This document shows, in pieces, positions 17,072 through 43,950 of a DNA stretch of 64,000 nt. The DNA is taken from the NCBI RefSeq assembly GCF_001187785.1, contig NZ_CP012154.1, positions 2,846,501 to 2,910,500 of the forward strand. The letters are read 5' to 3'. Source of the stretch: Wenzhouxiangella marina. GTDB taxonomy: Bacteria > Pseudomonadota > Gammaproteobacteria > Xanthomonadales > Wenzhouxiangellaceae. The notes beneath the pieces are model-generated. The model was not told the DNA's origin and ran no database searches. It saw only the letters and a program-made list of their open reading frames with translations. Position numbers and translations under genes: made by a program. How positions within the stretch are numbered: the first letter of the stretch is position 1; each line of letters begins with the position of its first letter.

Positions 17072-17785
17072 TTTCCGGTTTCCGGCTTGGACGGTGCCGA
17101 ACGGAGGCACCCCGGATAACCGGATGCCGTTGCAATCCCCGACACCGACGCCGACACCGCCCGATCGGAGTCCATGTCCCAGACATCTCCGCAAACCCGA
17201 TTGCGCAATGTCGCAACCATCGCGGAAAACCCGACGCACGCATATCCCAGCCATCACGGTCAACGCCACGCCCCGAATCACGACCCGCCAAAAACCCGAT
17301 TTCAGGTGGCAACGGAATTCTCCGGTCTGCCCGTCAGGTTGACGGAGATGCCTGAGGCATGGACCGTCGGGGACGTGGCCCCGACCTACGGTTTCGGGGC
17401 CGTATCAGGCCACCCGGGGATACCCGGACACCACGGCCAACCCCGTTATCGATACCGCCCGATCGAAACCCGCCGTAGGTCGGGCTCACACGCCCGACGG
17501 TCCATGTCCCAGACATCTCCGCAAACCCGACTGCGCAATGTCGCAACCATCGCGGAAAGCCCGACGCACGCATATCCCAGCCATCACGGTCAACGCCACG
17601 CCCCGAATCACGACCCGCCAAAAACCCGATTTCAGGTGGCAACGGAATTCTCCGGGCTGCCCGTCGGGTTGACGGAGATAACCGCGACATGGACCGTCGG
17701 GAGCGCAGTTCGGAAGCGATGTGCGGTTTGCCAGCGGCAAGAAGCGCATCGCTGAAGGACGCCCGCGCGTGTGGCCCCGACCTAC
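17072..17785. repeat. REP array 4, with a 200-bp direct repeat
   Basis: This covers the gene-free stretch 17063-17789. It opens with two TTTCCGG heptads (about 17073-17086) and the CACCCCGGAT end block. A 200-bp segment at 17171-17370 recurs nearly identically at 17501-17700 (offset exactly 330). Compact REPs lie at 17366-17389 (reverse) and 17475-17498 (forward), 85 nt apart, and an expanded REP at 17696-17785 closes the array. The array ends 4 nt before the stop codon of the FHA gene. Confidence 0.85.
17696..17785 (-). repeat. Expanded 90-nt REP, copy 2 (core inverted)
   Basis: Reverse orientation: GTCGG arm at 17696, CCGACCTAC at the end. The core reads in the opposite direction relative to the arms compared with copies 1, 3, 4 and 6; the CGCGCGTGTGGCC end lies next to the GTAG-side arm. 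The core aligns without gaps to the inverse complement of the copy 3 core, about 59 of 75 positions matching by hand count. Confidence 0.8.
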
Positions 17786-17789
17786 GGTT

Positions 17790-18203
17790 TCAGGCCGGCG
17801 GCGCTCCGCTGTTCAGGTACCACCACACGGCCGCGGCAGCCGCGCCGGCGATGCCGGCGCCCACGAGCCAGCCGATCCATGCGCGTGAACGTCGCGGTTG
17901 GACGTCGCGCAGGACGCTGGGCGGGCGCAGGCCCGGGGCCTGGAGGACGAAGCGGTGTTCGCCCAGGCGGATTTCGTCGCCGGACTTGAGCGCCTGGCGA
18001 TTGACCGGCTCGCCGTTGACCCAGGCCTGGTCGGCGGCCTCCAGCATCAACACCTCACCATCGAAGACCAGGCGGGCGTGCTGCTCCAGCAATCCGTCGA
18101 GCTGCACGCTGGCCTGCTCGCCGCTGCCGATGGGCGTGTCGTCGTCGAGCGGAAAGGTCTGACCCGTGATCGCGCCAGAGGCGCCTTTCAATCGAAATTG
18201 CAT
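17790..18203 (-). CDS. FHA-domain protein with a C-terminal membrane anchor
   Basis: A 137-residue protein with an FHA domain at about 10-90 (TPIGSGEQASVQLDG, then an H of the EQHARLVF strand, then WVNGEPVNRQALKSGDEIRLGEHRFVL). A basic stretch RRSRAW follows, and then a single membrane helix at about 108-130. FHA domains bind phosphothreonine, so this is probably a cytoplasmic phosphopeptide receptor held at the inner membrane. The canonical Arg of the FHA loop is replaced (IGSGEQASV), so binding may be weakened. It is a lone gene; its stop codon nearly touches the REP that ends array 4. Confidence 0.75.
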   Translation of the reverse strand: MQFRLKGASGAITGQTFPLDDDTPIGSGEQASVQLDGLLEQHARLVFDGEVLMLEAADQAWVNGEPVNRQALKSGDEIRLGEHRFVLQAPGLRPPSVLRDVQPRRSRAWIGWLVGAGIAGAAAAAVWWYLNSGAPPA

Positions 18204-18407
18204 GATTCTGAGTTCTCGAAAAGAAGGGTTCTCGCGGAGACGCAGAGGCGCAGATAAAACAAGAATGGGCTGGCTGGAAGCGCTGGATCAGCGCTCCGCA
18301 GCGGTCGGCAACCTTCCGCCAGGAGGCGAGCCTGAAACACACTTCTTGAGATCAAACGTCTTTCTCCACGCCTCAGCGAGAGGATTCTCGATTTCCGGCC
18401 GGCCGGT

Positions 18408-19559
18408 TCAAACGTGGTCCAGGGCAGTGGTGAGGTCGTCGATCAGGTCATCGACGTCCTCGATGCCGACGGAAAGGCGGATCAGGGTGTCGGTGATGCC
18501 GAGCGCCTCGCGACGCTCCTTGGGCACGCTGCCATGGGTCATGATCGCCGGGTGATTGACCAGGGATTCGACCCCGCCCAGGGACTCGGCCAGGGCGAAC
18601 AGATGGGTGTTTTCCAGGAAGCGGCGCGCTCGCGCCAGATCGCCGCCCAGGTCGAAGCTGACCATGCCGCCGAAGCCGCTCATCTGCTTCTCGGCCAGGG
18701 CCTTCTGCGGGTGCGAGTCCAGACCCGGATAGATCACCTTGGCGACCTTGTCCTGGCCTTCCAGCCATTCGGCGATGCGCTGGGCGTTCTCGCAATGGGC
18801 CTTCATGCGAAGCGCCAGGGTCTTGACCCCGCGCATGACCAGGAAGGAATCGAAGGGTCCCTGAATGCCACCGGCCGAATTCTGCAGGAAGGCCAGCTCC
18901 TCGCCGAGCGCATCGTCCTTCACCACCACGGCGCCGCCGACCATGTCGGAATGCCCGTTCAGGTATTTGGTGACCGAATGCATGACGATGTCGGCACCCA
19001 GGGCGATCGGCTGCTGCAGCATCGGCGTGGCGAAGGTGTTGTCGACCACCAGCTTCGCACCGATCTCGCGGGCCAGTTCGGCGATCGCGGCGATGTCGAC
19101 CAGCTGAAGCATCGGATTGGTCGGCGTCTCGACCCAGATCATCTTCGTGCGATCGGTGACGGCGGCGCGGGCCGCGTCCAGATCGGCCAGATCGGCGAAG
19201 CTGAAGTCCAGGCCCGAGGAGCGGCGGCGCACGCGCTCGAACAGGCGCCAGGTGCCGCCGTAGAGATCATGCATGGCCAGCACGTGATCACCGGGCGAGA
19301 GCAGGTGCATCAGGGTGTCGATGGCAGCCATGCCGGAGGCGAAGGCGAAGCCGTGGCGGCCGCCTTCGAGATCGGCGATGCAGGATTCCCAGGCCTTGCG
19401 GGTCGGGTTGTGGGTACGCGAGTACTCGTAGCCCTGGTGATCCCCCGGGCTCTTCTGCACGTAGGTCGAGGTGGTGTAGATCGGCGTCATGATCGCGCCG
19501 TTGCTCGGGTCCGGCGACTGGCCGGCGTGGATGACGCGCGTATTGAGCTTGTGAGCCAT
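18408..19559 (-). CDS. Cystathionine gamma-synthase/lyase family PLP enzyme
   Basis: A 383-residue fold-type I PLP enzyme of the trans-sulfuration family. Recognisable are YEYSRTHNPT, the FASGMAAI loop, the DLYGGTWRLF segment, VETPTNP, VVDNTFATP and the PLP lysine in SVTKYLNGHSDM (about residue 200). The C-terminal SVGIEDVDDLIDDL is also typical. The length is normal. Sequence alone does not separate cystathionine gamma-synthase, gamma-lyase and beta-lyase, so no symbol is given. I chose ATG 19559 over a TTG three codons upstream. It stands alone, with a 204-nt region before the FHA gene and REP array 5 upstream of its start. Confidence 0.85.
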   Translation of the reverse strand: MAHKLNTRVIHAGQSPDPSNGAIMTPIYTTSTYVQKSPGDHQGYEYSRTHNPTRKAWESCIADLEGGRHGFAFASGMAAIDTLMHLLSPGDHVLAMHDLYGGTWRLFERVRRRSSGLDFSFADLADLDAARAAVTDRTKMIWVETPTNPMLQLVDIAAIAELAREIGAKLVVDNTFATPMLQQPIALGADIVMHSVTKYLNGHSDMVGGAVVVKDDALGEELAFLQNSAGGIQGPFDSFLVMRGVKTLALRMKAHCENAQRIAEWLEGQDKVAKVIYPGLDSHPQKALAEKQMSGFGGMVSFDLGGDLARARRFLENTHLFALAESLGGVESLVNHPAIMTHGSVPKERREALGITDTLIRLSVGIEDVDDLIDDLTTALDHV

Positions 19560-19918
19560 GGGATGCAATGCCTGCGTTGATCAGCCCGTTATTGTATCGG
19601 GACTGGTGGGGAGGTTTCCGGTTTCCGGGAACTCAATGTCGAACGCAGACACCCCGGGATACCGGATGCCACTGCCCACCCCGTTATCGACCCATCCGAT
19701 CGAAACCCTGCGTAGGTCGGGGCCACGTCCCCGACGGTCCATGCCCCAGCCATCTCCGTCAATTCGACGGCGCAATGCCACAAATGTCGCGGAGAACCCG
19801 ACGCACGGATATCGCAGACATCGCCGGATCATGGACGGTGGTTGGTTTCCGAGGTTTTCGACTGCTGGGAGCTCGGGCATTGGTCGTCGGGTTGACGGAG
19901 ATACCGGAAGCATGGACC

Positions 19919-20008
19919 GTCGGCCACACGCGCGGGCGGTCTCCGGCGCGGCGCTTCTGGCCTGCGGCCAACCGCACCACGCCTCCAACCTGCGCTGGGC
20001 CGACCTAC
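19919..20008 (-). repeat. Expanded 90-nt REP, copy 3
   Basis: Reverse orientation. Outer arms GTCGG/CCGAC plus the GTAG complement. The core contains an inner stem TGGCC-TGC-GGCCA and a middle stem of GGCGCGG with CCACGCC (one mismatch). Confidence 0.85.
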
Positions 20009-20299
20009 GGTTTCGGGGCCCAATCGGACCACCCCGGAATATCGGCGGCCATCGCCCGCCCCGTTATCGACCCATCCGATCGAAACCCGCCGTAGGTCGG
20101 GCCCACGCGCCCGACGGTCCATGCCCCAGCCATCTCCGTCAATTCGACGGCGCAATGCCACAAATGTCGCGGAAAACCCGACGCACGGACATCGCAGACA
20201 TCGCCGGATCATGGACGGTGGTTGGTTTCTAATGTCGTTGGATGCCGGAGAGCCCCAGCGCTGCCCGTCGGGTTGACGGAGACACCCTCGACATGGACC

Positions 20300-20389
20300 G
20301 TCGGCCACACGCGCGGGCGGTCTCCGGCGCGGCGCTTCTGGCCTGCGGCCAACCGCACCACGCCTCCAACCTGCGCTGGGCCGACCTAC
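20300..20389 (-). repeat. Expanded 90-nt REP, copy 4
   Basis: Practically identical to copy 3 and set in the same R-83nt-F module, 381 nt downstream of it. The identity implies recent duplication of the module or conversion between copies. Confidence 0.85.
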
Positions 20390-21015
20390 GGTTTCGCGGC
20401 CCAATCGGACCACCCCGGAATGTCGGCGGCCATCGCCCATCCCGTTATCGACCCATCCGATCGAAACCCGCCGTAGGTCGGGCCCACGCGCCCGACGGTC
20501 GATGCCCCAGCCATCTCCGTCAATTCGACGGCGCAATGTCCCCGCCCATCACAGGCAACTCGACACACGCATTTCCCAGACATCACAGCGAATCGACGTA
20601 GCCAGTCCATGTCGCGGGTGTCTCCGCCAACCCGACGCCGCAATGTCGCACATTTCGCCGGAAATCCTACGGACGGATATCGGAGGCATTTTCGATGGCG
20701 TTGGGTGCCGGGAACTCCCAGCGCTGCCCGTCGGGTTGACGGAGACACCCTCGACATGGACCGTCGGGCACGTGGGCCCGACCTACGGTTTCGCGGCCCA
20801 ATCGGACCACCCCGGAATGTCGGCGGCCATCGCCCATCCCGTTATCGACCCATCCGATCGAAACCCGCCGTAGGTCGGGCCCACGCGCCCGACGGTCCAT
20901 GCCCCAGACATCTCCATCAATTCGACTGCGCAATGTCCCAACCATCGCGGAAAACCCGACACACGCATTCCCCACACATCACGGCGGCTGGACGAAGGCG
21001 GATCGTATGGGCGGC

Positions 21016-22359
21016 TCACCCCACCTCGGACTCGGAAAACTGCACCACCGGCGCCTTCTGGAGGATGTCCGCATAGGTCTTGTGCACCTGGCCCATGCGG
21101 ACGCGGCCGAGGAAGCCGGAGTAGGCCAGGTAGCTGACGAGGAAGCGACGGTCGGCGGCCCAGGGCGGCAGGAATTTCGGTGCGCGGACCAGGCCAAGGT
21201 CGGCGAGCTGGCAGAGAACGGGTATGTCTTCGAGATCGAGCTTGCCGCAGAACAGCAGCATCAGCACATCGGCGCGGCCGGCCGCGATGACCGAGCGCAG
21301 GAAATCGTGCACCCGCAGCAGTCCGTCGAGGTAGACAATGTCCTTGGTGAAGGGCGCGCCGCCGGTCAGCAGGCCGCCACGGAAGATCCGACGAGTCTGT
21401 TCGAAGGCCATCTTCTCGGCCGTGCTGAAATCCTCGCGGCGCCGGACCTGGGCCTCGTCCGGCAGGCTTCCTCCGGCCTGTTCGAGGAAGTGCCGATAGA
21501 CCTCGACGAAATCCGCGCCGTCGACGGCCATCTGGATTCCCAGCACCCGATCGGCCAGGCGGCTGAGGCGATCCAGGTCCATGCAGCCGGTGATGAACTC
21601 GGAGAACACCGCCAGGCCTTCCTGGGTGCGCGTCGTGCCCGGGTGACTGGAGGCCAGGATCGGCAGCTGGCGCTGATGACGGCCGTTGAGGCCGGTGGTG
21701 ACGTGAATGCCGGCTTCGTGGTGGACCAGTTGCTCGACATCGCGATCCGTGAACCTCGCCGTGGTCCGGATGCGGATGCGATCGGGCCCGGCCGTGGCGT
21801 TGGCCGACAGGTTGTCGACCAGCTCGATCGCCGGGGCTTCGTCACCGAAGTAGCGCTCGACGGCGACTTCGAGGCGCGCCGCGACGTCCTCGGCGCTGGC
21901 CGAGGCATCGTCCGGGGCGCCGAGATCGACGTGGCTCAAACGATCGATGATGCGGCGCAGGCGACGCGCCAGATCCAGCGGCGTGCGCGCGCTGTCCTTC
22001 AACAGGTGCAGCGGGGCGCCGTACAGCGCGCTGGACTCGACGAAGAAGCCGACCTCGCCGCGCTGGTGCAGCATCCGGCTGGCGGTGGCGATGCGATCGG
22101 CGATGCGCTCCAGCCACTCCCGCGCAGGCCCGGCCCGGGCGATCAGGGGGCGCGCCACCGCCAGGCGCTCGTCCACGGCCCGGGTGTCGGCCTCCGGGTA
22201 CTCGACCTCCGGAAGACGTCGCCCACCAGCAGCCAGGAACTCGTTGCGCACCTCCAGCGGCCAGGCCAGCAGGCCCAGAATGCGCAGCGGCTGCTCGGCT
22301 TCGCGCAGCGCCGTGGCGGCCCGGCGGATGTCCTGTTTCAGGCGGTTCTGGGGGCTCAT
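21016..22359 (-). CDS. DUF1704 (QEGLA-motif) metallopeptidase-like protein
   Basis: A 447-residue protein of the DUF1704 family, often annotated as flavohemoglobin expression-modulating QEGLA-motif protein. Key features are LVHHEAGIH (about residues 215-223, a zinc-binding HExxxH-type motif), the TRTQEGLAVFSE signature (about 247-258), and a helical C-terminal domain (about 310-447). The family includes eukaryotic tubulin tyrosine carboxypeptidases (MATCAP), which supports peptidase activity; the bacterial substrate is unknown. I chose ATG 22359 over an in-frame upstream start because the N-terminus then matches the family. It is divergent from oleA with 86 nt between, and its 3' end abuts REP array 5. 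Confidence 0.8.
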   Translation of the reverse strand: MSPQNRLKQDIRRAATALREAEQPLRILGLLAWPLEVRNEFLAAGGRRLPEVEYPEADTRAVDERLAVARPLIARAGPAREWLERIADRIATASRMLHQRGEVGFFVESSALYGAPLHLLKDSARTPLDLARRLRRIIDRLSHVDLGAPDDASASAEDVAARLEVAVERYFGDEAPAIELVDNLSANATAGPDRIRIRTTARFTDRDVEQLVHHEAGIHVTTGLNGRHQRQLPILASSHPGTTRTQEGLAVFSEFITGCMDLDRLSRLADRVLGIQMAVDGADFVEVYRHFLEQAGGSLPDEAQVRRREDFSTAEKMAFEQTRRIFRGGLLTGGAPFTKDIVYLDGLLRVHDFLRSVIAAGRADVLMLLFCGKLDLEDIPVLCQLADLGLVRAPKFLPPWAADRRFLVSYLAYSGFLGRVRMGQVHKTYADILQKAPVVQFSESEVG

Positions 22360-22391
22360 TCGCGGCCCGTGTGGACTGATCGATGTGGCGC

Positions 22392-22397
22392 TATAAT
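22392..22397 (+). promoter_or_regulatory. Consensus -10 box of the oleA promoter
   Basis: A perfect TATAAT lies in the 86-nt divergent region, 49 nt before the oleA start. No good -35 hexamer is found at 16-18 nt upstream, so an activator or extended contacts may be needed. Confidence 0.45.
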
Positions 22398-22445
22398 ACC
22401 GGGTTCGAATTACCAACTGCTCGCCTTGCGGGCCGGGAAGAATCA

Positions 22446-23462
22446 GTGCTGTTCGATAACGTCGTCATCAAGTCCGTTGCCCATGTGGAGCCGCCCAATC
22501 GCGTGACCAGTGAAGAGGTCGCTGAGCGTCTGGCTCCTACCTTCAAGAAGTTGCGCGTTCCGGGCAACCCCCTGATCGACCTGGCCGGCATCATGGAGCG
22601 CCGCTTCTGGGATCAGGGCATGATGCCGTCCGACGGCGCCACCCTGGCCGCCAAGGAAGCCCTGGCCAAGGCCGATATCGACCCGAAGCAGGTCGGCATC
22701 CTGATCAACACCTCGGTCTCGCGTGATTTCCTCGAGCCCTCGACGGCCTGCATGGTGCACGGCAACCTGCGCCTGGCCGACACCTGCGAGAGCTTCGACG
22801 TCGGCAACGCCTGCCTGGCCTTCATCAACGGCATGAACATTGCCGCCCAGATGCTCGAGCGCGGTCAGATCGACTACGCCCTGATCGTCAACGGCGAGAA
22901 CAGCCGGGAGATCAACGAGATCACCATCGAACGCCTGCTGGGGCCGAAGGTCACCCGCAATCAGTTCAAGCGCGAGTTCGCCAGCCTGACCCTGGGCTCC
23001 GGCGCGGCCGCCATGGTCATGTCGCGTGGTGATCTGGAACCGGACGGCCACCAGTACCGCGGCGGCGTCGCCCGTGCGGCGACCCAGTTCAACAACCTGT
23101 GCCGCGGCTGGAACCACCAGATGTGGACCGACACGAAGAGCCTGCTGATCGAAGGCATGAAGCTGGCCGGCATGACCTTCACCGCCGCCCGCACGGTGAT
23201 GGGCTGGGTGGTGCAGGAGCTCGATCACGTCGTCATTCATCAAGTGTCCAAGGCGCACACGGACAATTTCATCCGTGCCTTCGGCGCCGATCCCGAGCGG
23301 GTCTACCGCATCTTCCCGTTCCTGGGCAACATCGGCCCGGCCTCCATCCCGACCGTCATGTCGCGGATGGTGCAGGAAAACCGGGTCAAGCGCGGTGATC
23401 GCATGGCCCTGATGGGCATCGGCTCGGGCCTGAACTGCGCCATGGCCGAGGTGGTCTGGTAA
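22446..23462 (+). CDS. oleA: OleA, acyl-CoA head-to-head condensing thiolase
   Basis: A 338-residue thiolase-superfamily enzyme. OleA joins two fatty acyl-CoAs to a beta-keto acid in the first step of long-chain olefin (bacterial hydrocarbon) biosynthesis. The nucleophilic Cys lies in DVGNACLAFINGM (Cys123 in this numbering), with the His in VIHQVSKAHTD and the Asn in NIGPASIP. The start is the GTG at 22446, giving LFDNVVIKS as in known OleA, with GGGAAG 6 nt upstream; a longer frame begins at 22383 but overlaps the promoter. A GC-rich bulged hairpin (about 23489-23514) separates it from oleB. Confidence 0.93.
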   Translation: MLFDNVVIKSVAHVEPPNRVTSEEVAERLAPTFKKLRVPGNPLIDLAGIMERRFWDQGMMPSDGATLAAKEALAKADIDPKQVGILINTSVSRDFLEPSTACMVHGNLRLADTCESFDVGNACLAFINGMNIAAQMLERGQIDYALIVNGENSREINEITIERLLGPKVTRNQFKREFASLTLGSGAAAMVMSRGDLEPDGHQYRGGVARAATQFNNLCRGWNHQMWTDTKSLLIEGMKLAGMTFTAARTVMGWVVQELDHVVIHQVSKAHTDNFIRAFGADPERVYRIFPFLGNIGPASIPTVMSRMVQENRVKRGDRMALMGIGSGLNCAMAEVVW

Positions 23463-23532
23463 GACTCGAGGCCACTGGCCGATCCAGAAGGCCCGGCCGT
23501 GATTCGGCCGGCCTGAATCCAGGGACGCAAGC

Positions 23533-24420: not shown

Positions 24421-24453
24421 TCGCGGCAGGGTAATCGCCGGCTTGTCGGCGAT

Positions 24454-24883
24454 GTCTGTGACATGCGTGCGTCGGGCTTTCCGCGGTGGTTGCGGAATTG
24501 CGCCGTCTTCGTTCGGCATCGAGTTGCCCGTAACGGTTGTTGGTCGTTGCGTTGACCGTGATGGCTGGGATATCCGTGCGTCGGGCTTTCCGCGATGGTT
24601 GGGACATTGCGCAGTCGAATTGATGGAGATGTCTGGTACATGGTCCGTCGGGAGCGCAGTCCGGAAGCGATGTGCGGTTTGCCAACGGCAAGAAGCGCAT
24701 CGCTGAAGGACGCCCGCGCGTGTGGCCCCGACCTACGGCGGGTTACGGTCGGGCGGTGTCGATGTGGGGGGTTGTGTTGGCATCCGGTTGTCCGGGGTGC
24801 CTTCGTTCGGCATCGAGTTACCCATAACCCGGAAGCCGTGTTTTCCTGAAACCTGAAACCTGAAACCTGCACCCTGAAACCTA
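24454..24883. repeat. REP array 6 between oleB and oleC
   Basis: This fills the gene-free stretch 24421-24907 that splits the ole cluster. It holds inverted copies of the inter-REP unit (about 24530-24630), an expanded REP (24647-24736), the inverted array-end block (about 24777-24812), and five heptads of the form CCTGAAA at 24845-24879 (the fourth reads CCTGCAC). The heptads parallel the TTTCCGG heptads at the ends of arrays 3-5. Confidence 0.75.
24647..24736 (-). repeat. Expanded 90-nt REP, copy 5 (core inverted)
   Basis: Nearly identical to copy 2 (17696-17785), including the inverted core with its TTGCC/GGCAA inner stem. Its REP arm reads TCCGTCGG before the core. Confidence 0.8.
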
Positions 24884-24907
24884 CCCCACCCGATTACCAT
24901 ACGCATC

Positions 24908-26512: not shown

Positions 26513-26539
26513 AGGATCCTCGGCGGCCGCCGGGCGCGC

Positions 26540-32333: not shown

Positions 32334-32350
32334 CGGAGCGAGGACTCGGC

Positions 32351-32635: not shown

Positions 32636-32642
32636 GACGGTC

Positions 32643-35568: not shown

Positions 35569-35911
35569 ACCCACCAGCAACGAGGACCGCTACCAGAAAG
35601 TCTGGGCGGTGATCGAGGGCATTCCGGCCGGCGCCGTGCTCAACTACGGCGAGGTCGCCCGCCTGGCTGGCTTCCCGGGTCGGGCCCGCATGGTCGGCAT
35701 GGCCCTGGGCCGCGCACCGAAGAGCCGCCAGCTGCCCTGGCACCGGGTGGTCAATGCCCAGGGCCGGATCAGCTTTCCCGAAGGCAGCGTCAAGGCGCGC
35801 ACGCAGCGAGAGCGCCTGGAAGCCGAAGGCGTGGAATTCGTCGACGGGGTGATCGACCTGGATCGCTTCTCGCCGCAGCGGGCGATGGACCGCCTGCTCT
35901 GGGGCCCTTAG
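35543..35911 (+). CDS. Alkyltransferase-like protein (ATL, MGMT family without the acceptor Cys)
   Basis: A 122-residue protein of the O6-alkylguanine-DNA alkyltransferase DNA-binding domain. The motif that in true alkyltransferases reads PCHR is PWHRVVNAQGRI here, so the acceptor cysteine is replaced by Trp. This is the defining feature of ATL proteins, which bind and flag O6-alkylguanine lesions for nucleotide excision repair. VARLAGFPGRARMVGMAL is the helix-turn-helix region. The start is a GTG at 35543 with GGAGG upstream; it overlaps trmJ by 26 nt. It converges with ptsI (13-nt gap). Confidence 0.88.
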   Translation: MAEDRAKVEPTSNEDRYQKVWAVIEGIPAGAVLNYGEVARLAGFPGRARMVGMALGRAPKSRQLPWHRVVNAQGRISFPEGSVKARTQRERLEAEGVEFVDGVIDLDRFSPQRAMDRLLWGP

Positions 35912-35924
35912 GCCAGCTCGCCAT

Positions 35925-37649
35925 CTACTCCCTGAGCAATTCACCCAGAAGCTGGCGGCCGGAGGCCGGTCGTGCGCGATGACGCGCCAGAATCTCCCGA
36001 CAACGGGCGGCGCGGGCGTCGATCAGGCTCTTCTTGACCGCCGGAATCGAGGCCGGCGGCATGCTGAAGTTGGCCACGCCCAGGGCCAGCAGCAGGCGGA
36101 CGGCCGCTTCGTCGCCGGCCAGCTCGCCGCAGACCGTCACGGGGCAATCGAACTCACGCCCAGCGAGCACGATCTGCTCGATCAGGCTCAGAATCGCCGG
36201 GTGACCGGGATCGTAGAGGTAGCTGACCTGCTCGTCCTGGCGATCAATGGCCAGCACGTACTGGATCAGGTCATTGGTGCCGATGGACATGAAATCCAGC
36301 AGCGGCGCGAACTCGCGCACGGCCAGGGCCGCCGCCGGCGTCTCGATCATGCCGCCGACGGGCAGGCCCGGGTCGATGCTCTCGCCCCGGCGCTGCAGCT
36401 CCCGGCGGCAGTCGTCGATGATGCGGCGCGCCTGGTGCAGCTCTTCGACATCGGTGAGCATGGGCAGCAGAATCTGGACGGGCCCGTGGACCGAGGCGCG
36501 CAGGATGGCGCGGATCTGTTCGCGGAACAGCTCGGTGACCGCCAGCGACAGGCGCAGGCCACGCAGGCCCAGCGCCGGGTTCGGGCCCTGGGTCACGGCC
36601 AGGCCGGGCGGCAGCTTGTCGCCGCCGGCATCCAGGGTCCGGATCGTCACCGGCCGGCCCTCCATGGCTTCGATGGCCGCGCGATAGGCTCGATACTGGG
36701 TGTCCTCGTCCGGCAGACGATCGCCGAGGAACAGGTACTCGGTGCGCATCAGTCCGATGCCCGCGGCTCGGGCCTCGCGACAACGCTCGAACTCCGCCGG
36801 CAGTTCGGCATTCCCGTAGAGCTGGAAACCCTCACCATCCAGGGTCCGTGACGGGCGCGCAAGAAATCGCTTCAGTTCGGTACGGTGCCGCTCGCTGGCC
36901 TCACGCTTGTCTTCGTAGTGGCGCTGCAGGCCCTCGTCGAAGCCGACCATCAGGGCCCCGTAATGTCCATCGAGGATGACCGCCTCATCCTCGTTCAGGC
37001 GATTGACCGCCTGATGGATGCCCACCACCATCGGAATTTCAAGACTGCGGGCCAGGATCGCCGAATGCGACATCGGCCCGCCGTGCTCGGTCACCAGGCC
37101 GGCGACGCGGCGCTGGTGCAGGATCGCCATGTCGGCCGGCCCGAGGGAGTCGGCAACGATCACCGTGTCGGCCAGCTGATGCGGCACCTGGGCACCGACC
37201 AGGGTGGCCGGCTGATCGGCCATCTTTCTGAGAATCAGCTGGACGGCCTGCTCCAGATCCTCGCGACGCAGGGCGATGTAGCTGTCGTCCAGGCGACGGA
37301 ATTCGTCCAGCAGGGCCTCGCTCTGCTGCACCAGGGCCCACTCGGCGTTGATCCTCGAGTCGCGGATCCGCTCGACCGCGGCATCGACGAGCAGGGGATC
37401 GCGCAGGATCAGGCGATGGGCTTCGAGCAGCTCGCGCGCCGTTTCGCCTCCTTCGGCCACACGCTCGAGCATGCGCTGGATGAAGCGCTCGGAACGATCG
37501 ATGGCATGCTGCAGGCGCTCGATCTCGTTTTCGACCGCGCCGGCCTCGAGGTGATACTCGGGCAGATCGAGCTCACCGGGCGTGAGCCGGTGGACCCGGC
37601 CGATGGCGATGCCGCTGGTCACGCCGATGCCGGTCAGGATGAGACTCAT
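35925..37649 (-). CDS. ptsI: Phosphoenolpyruvate-protein phosphotransferase (PTS Enzyme I)
   Basis: A 574-residue Enzyme I of normal length, without the GAF domain of PtsP. The phosphohistidine lies in TEHGGPMSHSAILARS (about His188). The PEP-utilising C-terminal half shows MRTEYLFLGDR, GLRGLRLSL, the EFAPLLDFMSIGTNDLIQY motif and CGELAGDE. It passes phosphate from PEP to HPr. It is the last gene of a minus-strand run in which five successive gene pairs overlap by 4 nt. No sugar permease is present, so the chain is likely regulatory. Confidence 0.94.
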   Translation of the reverse strand: MSLILTGIGVTSGIAIGRVHRLTPGELDLPEYHLEAGAVENEIERLQHAIDRSERFIQRMLERVAEGGETARELLEAHRLILRDPLLVDAAVERIRDSRINAEWALVQQSEALLDEFRRLDDSYIALRREDLEQAVQLILRKMADQPATLVGAQVPHQLADTVIVADSLGPADMAILHQRRVAGLVTEHGGPMSHSAILARSLEIPMVVGIHQAVNRLNEDEAVILDGHYGALMVGFDEGLQRHYEDKREASERHRTELKRFLARPSRTLDGEGFQLYGNAELPAEFERCREARAAGIGLMRTEYLFLGDRLPDEDTQYRAYRAAIEAMEGRPVTIRTLDAGGDKLPPGLAVTQGPNPALGLRGLRLSLAVTELFREQIRAILRASVHGPVQILLPMLTDVEELHQARRIIDDCRRELQRRGESIDPGLPVGGMIETPAAALAVREFAPLLDFMSIGTNDLIQYVLAIDRQDEQVSYLYDPGHPAILSLIEQIVLAGREFDCPVTVCGELAGDEAAVRLLLALGVANFSMPPASIPAVKKSLIDARAARCREILARHRARPASGRQLLGELLRE

Positions 37650-37915
37650 TCGCCCTCTCCGAAACGATCTTCGATCAGGGCGACGAGGGCCTCCATCGCC
37701 TCCGTCTCCTGCTCACCGTCGGTTTCGAGGACCAGCTCGGTGCCGCAGGGTGCGGCCAGCAGCAGCACGCCCATGATCGACTTGGCATTGACGCGCTTCT
37801 CGCCGCGCTCGACCCAGACCTGGGCCGAGTGCGCCGAGGCCACCTGGACCAGCTTGCTCGCCGCGCGCGCGTGCAGGCCGAGGCGATTGATGAGCGTGAC
37901 GTTGCGACGAATCAT
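37646..37915 (-). CDS. ptsH: Phosphocarrier protein HPr
   Basis: An 89-residue HPr. The active-site His lies in RLGLHARAASKLV (about His15), and a serine in NAKSIMGVLLL (about Ser46) is the site an HPr kinase modifies. HprK is encoded three genes upstream, so both phosphorylation routes are plausible. Start ATG 37915 overlaps the upstream stop by 4 nt. Confidence 0.94.
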   Translation of the reverse strand: MIRRNVTLINRLGLHARAASKLVQVASAHSAQVWVERGEKRVNAKSIMGVLLLAAPCGTELVLETDGEQETEAMEALVALIEDRFGEGE

Positions 37916-38289
37916 GTCTCGATGATGCCCTGATGCCCCCCCAGGCAGGCCAGTTCGGCCAGTTCGCTGGCCGGCTTGTCGATGTGGTTAATCACTTTCA
38001 GGAGCATCGGCAGATTGAGCCCGGACACCACCGGCAGATCCCGCCGAGCCGCGGCTCGCGTGGCGAGGTTGTGCGGCGTGGCGCCCGGCAGGTCGGTCAG
38101 CACGACCGCGCCGTCCTGGTCCACGCTCATCGCCAGGGCACCGATCAATTCCTCGAGGGCCGTGTCCGGGTCGGCGCTGTAGCTGACCGAGACGGTGGTC
38201 ATCTGGATCATCCGACCCAGAATCACCTCGGCCTGGCGGCGCATGGATTCCCCCAGACCGGAATGGGTCACCAGCACCAGACCCGTCAC
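37912..38289 (-). CDS. PTS EIIA component, mannose/fructose (EIIA-Man) type
   Basis: A 125-residue single-domain EIIA of the mannose family. The phospho-acceptor His is in LVLVTHSGLGESM (about His9), followed by LIGALAMSVDQDGAVVLTDLPGATPHNLA. No EIIB, EIIC or EIID partner is nearby, so it is probably a signalling endpoint of the phosphorelay, as proposed for similar proteobacterial gene sets. It overlaps both neighbours by 4 nt. Confidence 0.9.
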   Translation of the reverse strand: MTGLVLVTHSGLGESMRRQAEVILGRMIQMTTVSVSYSADPDTALEELIGALAMSVDQDGAVVLTDLPGATPHNLATRAAARRDLPVVSGLNLPMLLKVINHIDKPASELAELACLGGHQGIIET

Positions 38290-39146
38290 GATTCGAGCTC
38301 GCGATGGGTCACGACGACCGGATGCCCGGCCTCGCGCATGGCGCGCCCGAGACGATCGGCGAGCCAGACCGATCGGTGCTGGCCGCCGGTGCAGCCGATC
38401 GCCACGGTGAGCAGGGCGCGCTGGTCTTCGGCCAGGGCCGGGCGCCAGCGCTGCACGAAACCGAGCACGTCGTCATGAAAGTCGAGCACCCGTTGATGAC
38501 GCGACAGGTACTCGTCGACTTCGGGATCGAGGCCGGTCCGGGCCCGCAGCTCCGGCTCCCAGTGCGGATTGGGCAGGCAGCGGGCATCGAAGACCAGGTC
38601 CACGTCCCGCGGCACGCCGCGCTTGAAGGCGAAGGATTCGAACACCAGCGAGAGCGCGCCTTCGTCGCTGCCCTGTCCCACGCTGCGCCAGACCTGGCGA
38701 CGAAGCTGGTGGATATTGGTTTCCGAGGTATCGACCACCCAGTCGGCACGTTCCCGAAGCGGCTCGAGCAGGCGGCGCTCGCGCTCGATCGCCTCCTCGA
38801 GCGCACCGCTGCCGGCCAGGGGATGGCGGCGGCGCGTCTCGGAAAATCGTCGGACCAGCACCGGCTCGGCCGCGTCGAGGAACAGGACCCGGAAGGCGCT
38901 CTCCTCGGACTGGCCGTCGAACAGCTGAACCAGGCGTTCCAGGCCGTCGGGGCCGGTCCGGGCATCGATGCCGATGGCAACCCGGGGATAGCGCTCGGGC
39001 TGGCCTCTGACCTCCTCGACCAGGTCGGCCAGCAGACCGCCCGGCAGATTGTCGACGCAGTAGTAGCTGAGGTCCTCCAGCGCGTTCAGGGCGACGCTCT
39101 TGCCGCTGCCCGACAGGCCGCTGATCACGATGATCGGATGCGTCAT
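38286..39146 (-). CDS. rapZ: RNase adapter protein RapZ
   Basis: A 286-residue RapZ/YvcJ protein. Walker A is SGLSGSGKSVAL (about 9-20). A Walker-B-like region is seen at VLFLDAAEPVLVRRFSETRRRHPL. The conserved C-terminal domain carries FKRGVPRDVDLVFDARCLPNPHW and the CTGGQHRSVWLADRL motif. In enterics RapZ binds glucosamine-6-phosphate and guides small RNAs to RNase E, tuning envelope precursor synthesis. It is embedded in the PTS-Ntr operon with 4-nt overlaps. Confidence 0.93.
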   Translation of the reverse strand: MTHPIIVISGLSGSGKSVALNALEDLSYYCVDNLPGGLLADLVEEVRGQPERYPRVAIGIDARTGPDGLERLVQLFDGQSEESAFRVLFLDAAEPVLVRRFSETRRRHPLAGSGALEEAIERERRLLEPLRERADWVVDTSETNIHQLRRQVWRSVGQGSDEGALSLVFESFAFKRGVPRDVDLVFDARCLPNPHWEPELRARTGLDPEVDEYLSRHQRVLDFHDDVLGFVQRWRPALAEDQRALLTVAIGCTGGQHRSVWLADRLGRAMREAGHPVVVTHRELES

Positions 39147-40084
39147 TCCCTGTCCCCCATCAGTCGGCCATGCCGCTCGACGAATTCGGCCGCGGCATCG
39201 AAGCCCTTCATGCGCAGCATGTGATCGCGGACCGCAGCCTCGGCCATGACGGCGAGGTTCCGGCCCGCCATCACCGGCAGATTGATCTGTGGAATGTCCA
39301 GATCCAGCACCCGGCGAGCTCCGATATTGCCGTGCAGGCGATCACCCCCCGGCGGCTCCTCGCCGGGCAGATGGAGATGGATGATCAGGCGCAGGAACTT
39401 GGTCGACTTGACGGCGGCATCGCCGAACATGCGGCGGATGTTGAGGATGCCGAGGCCGCGAACTTCGAGACAGTCACGAAGCACCGGCGGACAGGCGCCC
39501 TCGATGGTGTCCGGGGTGAGCTGGGTGAATTCCGGCGCGTCGTCGGCGATCAAGCGATGGCCGCGGCTGAGCAGCTCCAGGGCCAGCTCGCTCTTGCCGG
39601 TTCCGGACTCGCCGGTCAGCAGGACACCGAGGGTGAAGATTTCCATGAACACGCCGTGCAGGGTGACGCTGCGAGCCAGCCGGCGGGCGATCCGATACTG
39701 CAGAAAATTGACCAGCTCCCAGGCCGGGCGGGCCGAGGTCAGCAACGGCGTACCGCTTTCCTTGGCCCACTCCTCGAGGTCTTCGGCCACTTCGAGCCCC
39801 GAAGCCACGATGATCAGGGCCGGCTGGGCGTCGACGATCCGAGCGATGGCTTCCCAGCGGATCTTGGCCTCCAGCCCGTCCAGCCAGGCGCCCTCTTCCT
39901 CGCCGATCACCTGGACCCGGTTCGGGTGGATCAGGCTCAGAAAGCCGATCAGGGACGGTCGGGCACGGATGCTGCTGGCCGCGATCTGGCGCTGCTCGGC
40001 GGCGCGGCGTCCGGTCACCCAGCGCAGTTCGAGCCGGTCAGCGTAGGCCTGGAAGATTTCTGCGGGCGTGATGCTCGCGGTCAT
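39143..40084 (-). CDS. hprK: HPr kinase/phosphorylase
   Basis: A 313-residue HprK/P. It has an N-terminal Mur-like domain (about 1-130), Walker A GESGTGKSELALELL (about 158-172), and the HprK signature LEVRGLGILNIRRMFGDAAV (about 208-227). It phosphorylates a serine of HPr with ATP and can reverse the reaction. HprK in a proteobacterial rpoN cluster is known in several lineages lacking sugar PTS permeases and is thought to tune carbon or nitrogen signalling through HPr. Confidence 0.93.
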   Translation of the reverse strand: MTASITPAEIFQAYADRLELRWVTGRRAAEQRQIAASSIRARPSLIGFLSLIHPNRVQVIGEEEGAWLDGLEAKIRWEAIARIVDAQPALIIVASGLEVAEDLEEWAKESGTPLLTSARPAWELVNFLQYRIARRLARSVTLHGVFMEIFTLGVLLTGESGTGKSELALELLSRGHRLIADDAPEFTQLTPDTIEGACPPVLRDCLEVRGLGILNIRRMFGDAAVKSTKFLRLIIHLHLPGEEPPGGDRLHGNIGARRVLDLDIPQINLPVMAGRNLAVMAEAAVRDHMLRMKGFDAAAEFVERHGRLMGDRE

Positions 40085-40551
40085 GCGGCCGGATGGGCAT
40101 CCGGCTCGACGGCAAAGAGTCGAAGCAGAGCTTCGGCGCTGTCGGCGGAACGCAGCTGCTCGCGCTGGCCGGCATCACCGAAGCGCTGAGCGACGTCGGC
40201 CAGCAGACGAAGATAGACATCCGAGCACTGGTCGGGCACGGACAGGGCGAAGAACAGGTCGACCTTTTCCTGATCCGGCGCATCGAAGTCGATCGGGTGG
40301 CGCAGGCGGATCAGCGCGCCGCTGACACCGCTCTGGCCGTTGACGCGTCCGTGCGGAATCGCGACCCCATGACCCAGGCCCGTCGACCCCAGGCGCTCGC
40401 GCTGACAGAGGCTTTCGAAGATCTCTCGCGACTCGCCGCTGTCCGGCGAGGTCGCGAGCAGTTCGGCGGCCTTTTCCAGCAGGGATTTCTTGCTGGACAC
40501 GGAAATATCGACCGCGATGCGCTCGGGGTCGAGGACGTCGGCAAGATGCAT
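40081..40551 (-). CDS. ptsN: PTS-Ntr EIIA protein PtsN
   Basis: A 156-residue EIIA of the nitrogen PTS. The phospho-acceptor His lies in GLGHGVAIPHGRV (about residues 68-80). There is an N-terminal SVSSKKSLLEKAAELL helix. In enterics unphosphorylated PtsN binds potassium transport regulators and links PEP supply to nitrogen and envelope stress. It lies 25 nt downstream of hpf and overlaps hprK by 4 nt. Confidence 0.93.
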   Translation of the reverse strand: MHLADVLDPERIAVDISVSSKKSLLEKAAELLATSPDSGESREIFESLCQRERLGSTGLGHGVAIPHGRVNGQSGVSGALIRLRHPIDFDAPDQEKVDLFFALSVPDQCSDVYLRLLADVAQRFGDAGQREQLRSADSAEALLRLFAVEPDAHPAA

Positions 40552-40576
40552 CGGATTCGCCTGACGGCCGCCGGGC

Positions 40577-40903
40577 TCAGCCGGCTTCGGCCGCGCGGGA
40601 AGCGGAACGATGGTGGTCGGTCACCTTCTGCTTGTGCCGGCGCACCTGGCGGTCGAGCTTGTCGGCCAGGGCATCGATCGCGGCGTACATGTTCTCGTCA
40701 TGAACTTCGGCGAAGATCGGGTTGGTGCGGCCGCCGACGGCGATCGTGGCTTCGACCATGTGCTGGACCTTTTCCAGGCGCAGAACGAAATGAGCGGAGA
40801 TCAGGTTGTCGAAATGACGCTCGAAACGCTCGCATTTCTCGGTGATGTAGGCACGCAGGGCCTGGGTAACGTCGACGTTCTGTCCGGTGATTTCGATCTG
40901 CAT
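40577..40903 (-). CDS. hpf: Ribosome hibernation promoting factor (short HPF)
   Basis: A 108-residue HPF/YfiA-family protein (MQIEITGQNVDVTQALRAYI start, then KCERFERHFDNLISAHFVL, ANPIFAEVHDENMYAAIDAL-like region, DKLDRQVRRHKQKVTDHH). The length fits short HPF, which makes 100S ribosomes together with RMF. It lies in its usual place directly after rpoN (107-nt gap, enough for its own promoter). Confidence 0.93.
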   Translation of the reverse strand: MQIEITGQNVDVTQALRAYITEKCERFERHFDNLISAHFVLRLEKVQHMVEATIAVGGRTNPIFAEVHDENMYAAIDALADKLDRQVRRHKQKVTDHHRSASRAAEAG

Positions 40904-41010
40904 GAATGCTTGCTCCTTGGATGGGTGTAGCCAGGAGTCGGGCGGGTCGGCGCCGAGCGCCTCCAGACCCTGAATCCTGTTCCTAATCTTATACCAGGCA
41001 AGGCCCGAAA

Positions 41011-42411
41011 TCAGGCCCGCATGCGCGCCATTCTGCGACGCTGCGCCGAACCCGGGATGCCCAGCTGTTCGCGGTACTTGGCCACCGTGCGCCTGGCCAG
41101 ATGAATGCCCCTGGCGGCCAGGGCATCGACCAGCGCCCGGTCCGAGAAGGGTTTGCCGTCGGGCTCCTCCTGGATCAACCGCCGCAGGTGGGCCTTGACC
41201 GCCGTGGCGGCGACGGGCCTGCCATCCTGCCCGGTCAGGGCCACGGAGAAGAAATGCTTGAGCTCGAAGGTCCCGCGGGGCGTGTGGGCGTACTTGCCCG
41301 TCGTCGCCCGCGAAATGGTCGACTCGTGCACCCCGACCTGCTCGGCCACCTCGCGCTGCAGCAGCGGCTGCATGGCGATCTCGCCTTCCCTGAAGAAGCG
41401 ATGCTGCCGCTGCACGATGGCCTCGGTGACCGCGAGCAGGGTCTGATTGCGCATTTCCAGGCCGCTGATCAGCCAGCGCGCTTCCTGGAGTCGGTCTTTC
41501 AGGTACTGCTTGTCGTCACCCCGGCTCTTGCGCACCAGATCGGCATACATGCGGTTCAGCCTGAGGCCCGGGTCGCTGTCGGGGTTGAGGCTGACCCGCC
41601 AGCCATCGCCCCGCGGGTGGATGTAGACGTCCGGCACGACGTAGTTCTCGTCGTCCGAGCCGAAGCGACTGCAGGGGTGCGGATTGAGCGAGCGGATCAG
41701 CTCGACGGCAAGCTTGACGTCCTCGCGCTCGAAGCCCGTCGCCCGCGCCAGTCGATCCATGTCCTGCTGGCCCAGCACGTCCAGGTAGCGCTGGATGATG
41801 TGATCGGCCAGTCCCAGACCGGGCGTGGAGGCCGGCAGGGCCTGCAGCTGGACGTGCAGACACTCCTGCAGATCGCGGCAGGCCACACCGACCGGCTCGA
41901 AGTGCTGGACCCGCTCGAGCACGGCGGCGACTTCGTCGCGGGACACCAGGTACTCGGGCGCCAACGAGGCACGCAGGGTGTCCAGATCGTCCTTGAGAAA
42001 GCCTTCTTCATCGAGCGCGTAGATGATGGCTCGGGCGATGGCCTCATCGGTCTCGCTGAAACCCGACAGATTGGCCTGCCAGAGCAGGTGCTGCTGCAGG
42101 GATTCGTCCGCACGATCGCTGACGAAATCGTCGTAGCGCGGGCCTTCGCTGCTGACCGAGAAGCCGTCGGGCAGGTCGTCGAATCCGTAGTCCTCACCGA
42201 ACTCGATGTCCTGCTCGACCTCGGTGTCACTGCCGGCACCCCCTTCCGCATCCTCGCTGCGCTCGAGCAGGGGGTTGGTTTCGAGGATCTCGCGGATATG
42301 CTCCTTGAGCTCGAGACGGTTGAGCTGCAGCAGGGAAATGGCCTGACGCAGCTGCGGGGCCAGTTTGAGTTTCTGGCCGAGCTTGAGCTGTAGGCGCGCC
42401 GCTGCTTTCAT
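41011..42411 (-). CDS. rpoN: RNA polymerase sigma-54 factor RpoN
   Basis: A 466-residue sigma-54. The Gln/Leu-rich region I is at the start (LQLKLGQKLKLAPQLRQAISLLQLN), followed by an acidic region II (about 50-110), a core-binding domain, a HTH (REVAEQVGVHESTISRATTGKY, about 355-376), and the RpoN box RRTVAKYREQLGIP (about 442-455) that reads the -24 element. It would serve the FHA activator at 61364 and the sigma-54 promoter at 61175-61190. No lptB lies upstream, unlike the enteric arrangement. Confidence 0.94.
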   Translation of the reverse strand: MKAAARLQLKLGQKLKLAPQLRQAISLLQLNRLELKEHIREILETNPLLERSEDAEGGAGSDTEVEQDIEFGEDYGFDDLPDGFSVSSEGPRYDDFVSDRADESLQQHLLWQANLSGFSETDEAIARAIIYALDEEGFLKDDLDTLRASLAPEYLVSRDEVAAVLERVQHFEPVGVACRDLQECLHVQLQALPASTPGLGLADHIIQRYLDVLGQQDMDRLARATGFEREDVKLAVELIRSLNPHPCSRFGSDDENYVVPDVYIHPRGDGWRVSLNPDSDPGLRLNRMYADLVRKSRGDDKQYLKDRLQEARWLISGLEMRNQTLLAVTEAIVQRQHRFFREGEIAMQPLLQREVAEQVGVHESTISRATTGKYAHTPRGTFELKHFFSVALTGQDGRPVAATAVKAHLRRLIQEEPDGKPFSDRALVDALAARGIHLARRTVAKYREQLGIPGSAQRRRMARMRA

Positions 42412-42465
42412 GGCTTCATTCTACGCCGCCGCTCGAGCGGCGCAAAAGCGACTTTAGGCCAACAC

Positions 42466-42483
42466 GCCCGATCACGATCGGGC
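42466..42483. repeat. 18-bp palindrome between rpoN and the upstream gene
   Basis: GCCCGATC (42466-42473) is followed by AC and GATCGGGC (42476-42483), a perfect dyad 8 nt beyond the stop of the carboxymuconolactone decarboxylase-family gene. The position suits a terminator, but no T tract follows on the minus strand. Confidence 0.4.
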
Positions 42484-42490
42484 AAGCACC

Positions 42491-43093
42491 TCAGTCTCCA
42501 GCCCCGACGTGCTTGCCGCCGGTCCAGCCGCCCTGCCGGAGCAGGCGGTCGCCCAGCTGGCGCGGAGCCTCTTCGAGATCGGTGGCCATCGAGTCGTTCC
42601 AGCGATTCAGGAAACCGTACAGGCAGACCGCGCCGAGGAGCTCGACGATCTGCTCCTCGCTCCAGTGCTTTTTCAGGCGAGCCATCAGCGCCTCGTCGAC
42701 GGAATTCGGGACGCTGCCGGCGGCCAGGGCAAAATCCAGCGCCGCCCGTTCGGCTTCGCTATAGAGCTCACTGGTCTGGTATTCCCAGATCGCATCGACC
42801 TTGTCCTGCGCCACACCGCTGATGCCGGCGGCAATCAGGGAGTGGGCCTCGCAGTACTGGCAACCGGCCGCACGGCTGGAAAAATGAGCCAGCAGGCGTT
42901 TGAAACCGGGCTCGACGCTGCCTTCCGGATCCATAACGGCCGCCGTCAGCTCGCCGAAGGCACGCACGATGGCCGGCCGGCGCTGCATGGTCAGAAGGGA
43001 GTTGGGCACGAAGCCCAGGATGGATTCGAAGTGGCGGAAGGTGTCGGCCAGTTCCGGGGTGGTCTCGGGGGCCAGCGGCTCGATGTGTGCCAT
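42491..43093 (-). CDS. Carboxymuconolactone decarboxylase/AhpD-like family protein
   Basis: A 200-residue all-helical protein of the CMD family. The AhpD-type active site is visible as AAGCQYCEAHSLIAA (about residues 79-93; CxxC pair and downstream His), preceded by an E-x-G-FKRLLAHFSS helix. Family members are peroxidase or disulfide-linked reductases, but the substrate is unknown. I chose ATG 43093, which starts MAHIEPLAP as in relatives, over an upstream in-frame start at 43153. Confidence 0.8.
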   Translation of the reverse strand: MAHIEPLAPETTPELADTFRHFESILGFVPNSLLTMQRRPAIVRAFGELTAAVMDPEGSVEPGFKRLLAHFSSRAAGCQYCEAHSLIAAGISGVAQDKVDAIWEYQTSELYSEAERAALDFALAAGSVPNSVDEALMARLKKHWSEEQIVELLGAVCLYGFLNRWNDSMATDLEEAPRQLGDRLLRQGGWTGGKHVGAGD

Positions 43094-43229
43094 GGTTGCT
43101 CGATCTCCTGGATGCAAACGGCCAAGGATCGGAGATATCCCGGGCGAGTTCAAGCGGTGGGACTAGTAACACGGGGGCGAGAGCGAGCAATCTGAGATAA
43201 TCCGGGCTGGCGAAGAAACGGAGATTTCG

Positions 43230-43724
43230 ATGCTCATCGACCTGCTTGTCGTGCTCGGCTGGGTGCTGGCGGTGCTGCTGGTGCTGATCGGTCTGGCCGG
43301 GATCATCCTGCCCGCCCTGCCGGGCGTGCCCGTGATCCTGTTCGGCCTGGTGCTGATGGCCTGGCTCGACGGATTTGCCAGCGTCGGGCTCGCCACCCTG
43401 CTGGGCCTGGGCTTCCTGGCCGTGCTTTCGGTGATCATCGACTTTCTGGCCACCGCCGAAGGCGCGCGGCGTTTCGGCGCCGGGCGGCACGCCATCCTCG
43501 GCGCCACCCTGGGCCTGCTGGTCGGCATCTTCTTCGGACTCCCCGGCATCCTTCTGGGGCCCTTCGTCGGCGCCATGCTGGGCCACATGGCCAGCAAGGC
43601 CAATCTCGATGCCTCGATGCGTGCCGGCGTCGGCGCCACGATCGGGGTGGTCGTCGGCACCGTGGCCAAGGGCATCATCGCAGCGGTGATGCTGGTCTGG
43701 TTCGTGCTGGCATGGTGGTTCTGA
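43230..43724 (+). CDS. DUF456 family membrane protein
   Basis: A 164-residue, glycine-rich integral membrane protein with about five hydrophobic helices. GLAGIILPALPGVPVILFGLVLMAW near the start and FFGLPGILLGPFVGAMLGHM in the middle are the DUF456 signatures. The function of the family is not known. It is a single gene preceded by an AACGGAG site and followed by REP array 7. Confidence 0.82.
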   Translation: MLIDLLVVLGWVLAVLLVLIGLAGIILPALPGVPVILFGLVLMAWLDGFASVGLATLLGLGFLAVLSVIIDFLATAEGARRFGAGRHAILGATLGLLVGIFFGLPGILLGPFVGAMLGHMASKANLDASMRAGVGATIGVVVGTVAKGIIAAVMLVWFVLAWWF

Positions 43725-43759
43725 GCGCCGTGGCTACTTGAGCGCATCGATCTGGGGAT

Positions 43760-43950
43760 GAGGGTTGCGTCGGGTTGACGGAGATTCTTGAGGCATGGAC
43801 CGTCGGGCGCACGCGCGGGCGGTCTCCGGCGCGGCGCTTCTGGCCCGCGGCCAACCGCACCACGCCTCCAACCTGCGCTGGCCCGACCTACGTTCCGGGT
43901 GTCGATCGGAGGCCCATCTCGCGGAGATCTCCGGCAACCCGAAGAGGGGT
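43760..43950. repeat. REP array 7, between the DUF456 gene and rbfA
   Basis: Between convergent genes lies a short array: the CGTCGGGTTGACGGAGAT flanking box (about 43768-43786), the expanded REP (43802-43891), and decayed flank containing ATCTCCGGCAACCCGA (about 43927). No compact REP is intact here. Confidence 0.75.
43802..43891 (-). repeat. Expanded 90-nt REP, copy 6
   Basis: Same core orientation as copies 3 and 4, more than 20 kb away from them, with only scattered differences (for example a C in the inner loop: TGGCC-CGC-GGCCA). The copy shows that the 90-nt form travels as a unit, independent of the large arrays. Confidence 0.8.

Follow-up and report, generated by a model that had tools for sequence, protein, structure and literature searches.

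Known short palindromes and the 90-nt composites

In behaviour, the closest described relatives of the element treated here are the GC clusters (GC42 and kin) of yeast mitochondria. Passages of PMC4478555 portray them as short mobile palindromes with AG as target nucleotides, whose adjoining nucleotides vary with presence or absence of the cluster, a pattern read as co-conversion; the same passages report that clusters merge and split, suspect RNA-mediated spread and give the mobilising enzyme as unknown. Closest in outer form are the bacterial repetitive extragenic palindromic (REP) sequences of the GTAG type, found with REP-associated tyrosine transposase (RAYT, or TnpA-REP) genes as REPtrons and REPINs. 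Where PMC6006769 sets out rules for REPs, the loop has 2-5 nucleotides (nt) or there is an extra stem of 1-10 nt; the large loops of Bradyrhizobium GTAG-14 described in part of PMC3733652 reach 27 bp. Here, we analyze a 64,000-nt stretch (the window) of the Wenzhouxiangella marina genome (contig NZ_CP012154.1, positions 2,846,501 to 2,910,500; the genome is a single contig of 3,675,202 bases). It carries six 90-nt elements that share the outer arms, the GTAG tag and a RAYT gene with such REPs, and that hold about 70 nt inside the arms, exceeding the rule for loops and extra stems. We consider it very probable that an independent mobile hairpin inserted itself into the loop of a 24-nt GTAG REP, and that the two forms of the 90-mers, A and B, are insertions on either strand.

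The likeness to GC clusters (a mobile palindrome, an AG target, changed neighbour letters) is one of behaviour and not of sequence comparison. GC clusters are organellar and the hairpin is bacterial; unlike them, it has a conserved inner mismatch motif and a GNA triloop, and nests in REPs. From GTAG REPs it differs in having no GTAG of its own and in occurring without REP arms and in genomes that lack a RAYT over the family cut-off. Rickettsia palindromic elements and bacterial miniature inverted-repeat transposable elements (RUP, NEMIS, ERIC) are likewise small, non-coding, mobile and also found in genes, and parts of PMC2229807 record the entry of RUP and Neisseria elements into transposase genes; most of them, however, have terminal inverted repeats, TA ends and target duplications, whereas the hairpin adds 66 nt, replaces about 3 and duplicates none. 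Set beside IS200/IS605-type Y1 elements, whose fixed target stays intact at the left end without duplication, the hairpin shows no duplication and a weak NNY-G preference, but about three target letters are replaced. The initial annotation of the window knew of no description of such an element, and we found none in Rfam 15 or in the open-access literature, a search that took in few subscription papers and preprints.

The six 90-mers start at 9235, 17696, 19919, 20300, 24647 and 43802, and reading the sequence at these coordinates confirmed both their length and the initially noted split of four to two in core orientation relative to the GTAG side: A form at 9235, 19919, 20300 and 43802, B form at 17696 and 24647. 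They carry the GTAG tag and a complementary stem as GTAG REPs do; GTAG is intact in five of the six, and the copy at 9235 has a decayed arm (ATAGATCGCG). The A and B cores agree without gaps at 59 of 75 nt (78.67%), the same as an earlier hand count, and the reported inner-stem difference TGGCC/GGCCA versus TTGCC/GGCAA is a true double change (pair 28-38 is GC in 16 and UA in 3 of 19 rows from this genome). The core, initially put at about 75 nt, does repeat with constant arms, but it is actually a 69-nt unit plus letters of the REP arms; likewise, the interval 17696-43891 contains the elements but also unrelated genes, and only the elements belong to the finding. Taking the 69-nt unit AG..T, which has a G right after it, out of any of the 90-mers leaves 21 nt of REP, the units being placed as follows:

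9247..9315, + strand: hairpin unit (AG+66+T); the 90-mer around it, 9235-9324, is of A form, decayed, and lies next to the RAYT gene
17702..17770, + strand: hairpin unit in the B-form 90-mer 17696-17785, with GTAG on the other strand
19928..19996, - strand: hairpin unit in the A-form 90-mer 19919-20008
20309..20377, - strand: hairpin unit in the A-form 90-mer 20300-20389; at this site, the neighbouring tandem unit carries a compact REP
24653..24721, + strand: hairpin unit in the B-form 90-mer 24647-24736
43811..43879, - strand: hairpin unit in the A-form 90-mer 43802-43891

Empty sites and boundaries of the unit

The compact REP of 24 nt is real, as its pattern GTAGGTCGG-N8-14-CCGAC has 109 matches in the genome, 12 of them within the window, against 3 for the backwards pattern; its length equals the 21 nt of REP in the composites plus 3. 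In the A form, the unit takes the place of CAC in the loop ...GGCC-CAC-GCGCC on the GTAG strand, and in the B form that of similar letters on the opposite strand (GAC or CGC, followed by G). Both forms are thus explained by insertion into one or the other strand of the REP loop, because removal of the unit leaves 21 nt in all six copies, the 24-nt empty form coexists with the filled ones, and precise empty sites occur in 25 unrelated contexts.

These contexts come from a comparison of filled and empty sites among loci that were chosen for carrying cores or Y1 genes and are not a random sample. A set of 187 covariance model hits was reduced to 160 rows by removing pieces of <66 nt and repeats with the same flanks (a few near-duplicates remain); 16 rows lacked two parsed ends, and 23 of the other 144 were left out as tandem or as having <60 nt of flank, which gave 121 copies in 60 contexts. 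For each copy, we cut out the stretch between AG and TG, joined the flanks and sought a continuous ungapped match elsewhere. Such a gap-free empty site exists for 62 of the 121 non-tandem copies and in 25 of the 60 contexts, a floor given the way in which loci were picked. Cuts off in length by 1, 2, 3, 4 or 6 nt yielded 0-8 matches among the 121, random 66-nt cuts in the same loci yielded 0, 1, 1, 2 and 2 in five repeats, and shifted cuts 0/120 and 1/112. Compared base by base, filled and empty sites are identical in at least 21 of the 25 contexts up to the base preceding AG, then in 11 at the A, 15 at the G, 5 at the T and 24 at the next G. The empty site has C (18/25) or T (5/25) at the position of the T, and G as the next letter in 20/25. 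From this table of identities, the unit is AG+66+T, standing where the empty site has three letters. The distance from AG to TG is 66 nt in 80 of the 144 parsed copies (range 63-71); filled minus empty fits one length throughout the 25 contexts, and target duplication was not seen in any of them. Repeats that have nothing to do with REPs likewise occur with and without the hairpin.

We propose the following course. A unit 5'-AG-(about 66 nt)-T-3' of 69 nt would replace about 3 nt that precede a G (often NNC followed by G), the site would grow by 66 nt, and the target would not be duplicated. The REP loop would present such a target on each strand, and entry in either direction would then give the A and B forms; the composite 90-mers would subsequently spread as REPs, and the hairpin would also have entered other repeats, its own left end (in tandem arrays) and genes. 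Insertion rather than loss is probably the usual direction, and can be read directly only where a gene is broken. Three loci (L278, L279 and L292, the first two being the same site in two genomes) carry a 68-nt copy inside transposase genes that resemble TnpA-Y1 subclass 2.3 and are relatives of a 370-amino-acid (aa) protein discussed below. When the copy is left out, these genes align gap-free to uninterrupted relatives, and the direction here is thus insertion. Tandem hairpin arrays, with 67-nt units in 2.0 to 3.6 copies and 95-100% matches, look as though the unit had inserted into its own left end; at L099-L102, arrays of this 67-nt period lie inside one pair of arms. Elsewhere in W. marina (contig positions 2718517-2718590; 1501-1574 of locus L057), a decayed A-form copy adjoins a remnant of a subclass-2.3-like gene.

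In the window, positions 17080-21060 hold five tandem units (u0 to u4) of 330-400 bp with several REPs per unit. Across them, a single REP site takes three different forms (compact, B, A, A, compact), the two compact copies being:

17366..17389, - strand: compact 24-nt REP, the same site in tandem unit u0, empty form
20763..20786, - strand: compact 24-nt REP, the same site in tandem unit u4, with the flanks of 20300-20389

The flanks of 20300-20389 and 20763-20786 are identical over 46 nt to the left and 111 nt to the right, from which we conclude that the exchange between them is recent.

Distribution, fold and candidate enzymes

The initial annotation had named an absence of further copies, or of covarying pairs, as refuting its reading, and neither was observed: the core covariance model has 48 matches in the genome at E <= 0.1 (the weakest at 0.03), and the best other matches of a query copy within the genome go down to E 7.4e-36, leaving aside the query itself and its identical twin. 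The core is matched in 26 of 61 genomes, that of W. marina among them. With a broader model, 13 genomes picked for a recount have 1 to 81 copies each, the highest numbers being those of a Marinicella metagenome-assembled genome (MAG; G061, 81 copies) and of a sister genus (G030, 65 copies). An exact 20-base motif retrieved 90 stretches among 85,000 species genomes; the carriers among the matches listed (80 of 90) are Wenzhouxiangella, Marinicella, Ectothiorhodospiraceae, Thiotrichales, Lysobacterales and unclassified gammaproteobacteria, and two of the matches (L106, L160), with model E of only 0.01-0.04, are probably due to chance. A class-wide search found the core in 3 of 275 genomes, this one included, and says little on absence, since only 17 candidates per genome were scored. 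By a strict pattern, 106 of the 160 rows have neither GTAG on the left nor CTAC on the right, at least 4 of them having decayed REP arms. The own genome contributes 15 A, 7 B and 25 neither (at least 4 of the 25 decayed A), and the relatives 32 A, 0 B and 81 neither, with at least one of the 32 (L153) carrying GTAG by chance. The core is a module in its own right and does not belong to the REP.

A phage, plasmid or viral origin of the hairpin was considered and dropped: the exact motif has 0 matches in viral contigs, and blastn gave no match in plasmids (query, one 68-nt relative) or in phages (query, one window copy). In genome G011, copies at 1259-1336 and 1501-1576 of locus L069 lie just past the 5S gene (1058-1172) of a ribosomal RNA operon, and a copy in G013 (L078, 1501-1577) has a similar flank. 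In Marinicella and a related MAG (L112, L122, L123, L165 and others), the hairpin sits within larger mosaic repeats (GGAGAGC...CATTCC) in which as many as three hairpin-like modules follow one another; many copies lie at contig ends.

Selection on a folded strand, as suggested initially, is supported by covariation above every shuffle in three alignments. Among 19 copies of this genome, aligned with MAFFT and not fitted to the model, standard pairs make up 97.9% versus 91.3% when shuffled, and double changes affect 10 of 23 pairs versus a shuffled mean of 3.9 (0/500 shuffles reach the observed value). In 67 distinct rows from this genome, the genus and beyond, 95.8% of base-pair cells pair versus 76.4% shuffled, with double changes in 19/23 pairs and 28-56% pairing when the partner is slid. 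A further 36 distinct rows, found by an exact motif in the inner stem, which was not counted, give 89.9% versus 64.0% shuffled and 21-44% with slid partners. The latter two alignments were fitted to the covariance model and are hence biased towards it; the fold is nevertheless upheld because the slid and shuffled controls and the unfitted MAFFT alignment agree. The consensus reads A-stem1-NG-stem2-loop-stem3-GCGG-stem4-GNA-stem4'-AGAAGC-stem3'-loop-stem2'-CG-nn-stem1'-GTG, the hairpin ends pairing with each other as stem 1. Of the 118 triloops counted in 133 parsed rows, 103 read C(GNA)G; a GNA triloop is extraordinarily stable as DNA. As to the functional strand, G-U occupies 130 cells versus 14 for A-C, and the plus strand of the core (core+) folds better than core- in 59/60 sampled copies as RNA and 56/60 as DNA. 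Recognition and movement would act on the folded core+ strand, either as single-stranded DNA or as RNA; we give a Y1 (HUH) enzyme working on single-stranded DNA a somewhat higher chance than RNA, though less than even.

Two kinds of Y1 gene deserve attention as mobilisers, the first being represented in the window:

8440..8949, - strand: RAYT gene, 169 aa (NF047646, 139.2 bits against a cut-off of 80; Y1_Tnp)

This gene is bracketed by compact REPs at 8352-8375 and 9128-9151, and of the 8 RAYT genes that exceed the cut-off within the genus, 3 have a core in the 1.5 kb analysed around them. Cores near RAYT genes suit a spread of composites as REPs, and the composites were probably multiplied with REPs by RAYT. 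As the sole mobiliser of the core, RAYT was rejected, since copies abound without a RAYT over the cut-off (G062 has one).

The second is a transposase-like Y1 protein of 370 aa that carries the motifs NHFH and YVDLNP and is encoded at 2625851-2626960 of the same contig (L266, 1021-2133); it has four near-full copies in the genome at 76-100% identity, two with an internal stop. By motifs and taxonomy, it resembles TnpA-Y1 subclass 2.3 as characterized in parts of PMC6006769, which give this subclass as frequent in Chromatiales and Alteromonadales and without REP-like flanks. Relatives occur in 20 of 30 genomes of the genus, where the subclass-2.3-like gene and the core co-occur (19/4/1/6, p 0.002); outside the genus no co-occurrence was found (2/1/13/15, p 0.60). 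In 20 order-level genomes, core matches were seen in 2/10 with and 2/10 without such genes, and among 30 loci with subclass-2.3-like genes 4 have cores, every time inside the gene. The link of subclass 2.3 to the hairpin as its mobiliser is thus co-occurrence within the genus, which fails outside it. We know of no substrate for subclass 2.3 proteins. An autonomous element sharing the hairpin ends was sought only around Y1 genes, and none was seen there.

Competing explanations and significance

Several results weigh against insertion of a mobile hairpin into REPs and other sites. When both cuts are moved together by 5 nt, 72 of the 121 copies still match; the length test therefore fixes the length and not the place of the unit, and the place rests on the base-by-base table. 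For 35 of the 60 contexts, the DNA examined contains no empty site. In tandem units u3 and u4, the inner arm letters differ as well (GTCGGCC versus GTCGGGC), which implies that the whole hairpin was exchanged there and not the unit alone. A 52-nt decayed copy in a gene (L294) needs a 1-nt gap to align. To our knowledge, IS200/IS605-type insertion does not replace 3 nt. RAYT genes over the family cut-off are absent from G061 and G030, and since these genomes have many copies, RAYT does not explain the core. Fitting the rows to the model tilts the G-U counts in favour of its strand. Finally, the tree of the cores cannot separate one capture from two (approximately unbiased test, AU, p 0.504).

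Among the alternatives, the best survivor, in our view still unlikely, holds that the core is a regulatory RNA or a messenger RNA stability element under selection at many genes. The covariation and the conserved G-U pairs on one strand fit it. So does the avoidance of divergent promoters: with our own gene calls for 27 copies, 5 of which lack one or both neighbours, 0 of the remaining 22 lie between divergent genes. The same is true of REPs in general. A strand preference is absent, with 5 copies along both neighbours, 6 against both and 11 between convergent genes; copies that stand in tandem or lie inside transposase genes and other repeats have the look of parasites; and Rfam 15 has no match on the element (tRNA only in the window; 8 loci searched, E up to 5). 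The hairpin may have acquired a host role later.

A little less probable is the inversion put forward in the initial annotation. The expanded REP would have a single origin, and its core would turn round between the short arms, through template switching at the hairpin in replication or a recombinase. Both forms indeed have 90 nt and the same arms, and a tree that unites all own-genome A and B cores in one clade is not rejected by the AU test quoted above and even exceeds the free tree by 1.81 log units. But the free tree places the B cores in two groups apart from the A group, at both junctions B departs from what inverting A in place would give (A arms of the GTCGGCC..GGCCGAC type, B arms GTCGGG..GTGGCCCCGAC), and B is found in 0 of 32 GTAG-armed rows of relatives. 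With a 21-nt remainder, a 24-nt empty form and precise empty sites in 25 contexts, inversion is unnecessary and not supported. It is also quite improbable that the compensatory changes were copied by template-switch correction of quasi-palindromes rather than selected. Such correction is known for palindromes, but it would erase conserved mismatches, yet the U-G pair beside GG/AA is retained in 43/66 and 34/36 rows and GCGG...AGAAGC is conserved at >=90%. That the 90-mers are original and the 24-mers their deletion products we hold to be very improbable, since compact REPs are commoner (109 versus about 30 armed copies) and occur with other arms in loci of relatives, the interrupted form is plainly derived in genes, and the unit is present or absent in non-REP repeats too; in its favour stands a scar-like compact REP. 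This one (contig positions 3346914-3346937, among the matches listed) has the loop AGCG, the first letters of the hairpin, and on sequence grounds is possibly the scar of a lost hairpin copy.

With insertion of an independent hairpin as the preferred explanation, we tentatively suggest, as a proposal about as open to failure as to success, that the hairpin represents a self-spreading bacterial family of about 69 nt, a free-living counterpart of GC clusters, with an undescribed mechanism (no duplication, about 3 nt replaced, insertion on either strand, palindrome tips preferred). It would have been kept across several gammaproteobacterial families by selection on the single-stranded fold, TnpA-Y1 of subclass 2.3 being one candidate enzyme. 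Small palindromic repeats are usually classed into families by their outer form; base-precise empty sites indicate that one hairpin moves among such families, REPs included, so that part of the diversity of REP-like elements is probably nesting. Few mobile pieces with as many mapped insertions are as small as the 66-nt unit. The fold offers a clear bait for the mobilising enzyme, and the insertion signature, 3 nt replaced without duplication, calls for a mechanism, one that lends itself to tests in vitro. How mitochondrial GC clusters move is a long-standing question, and the hairpin also offers a bacterial case of it.

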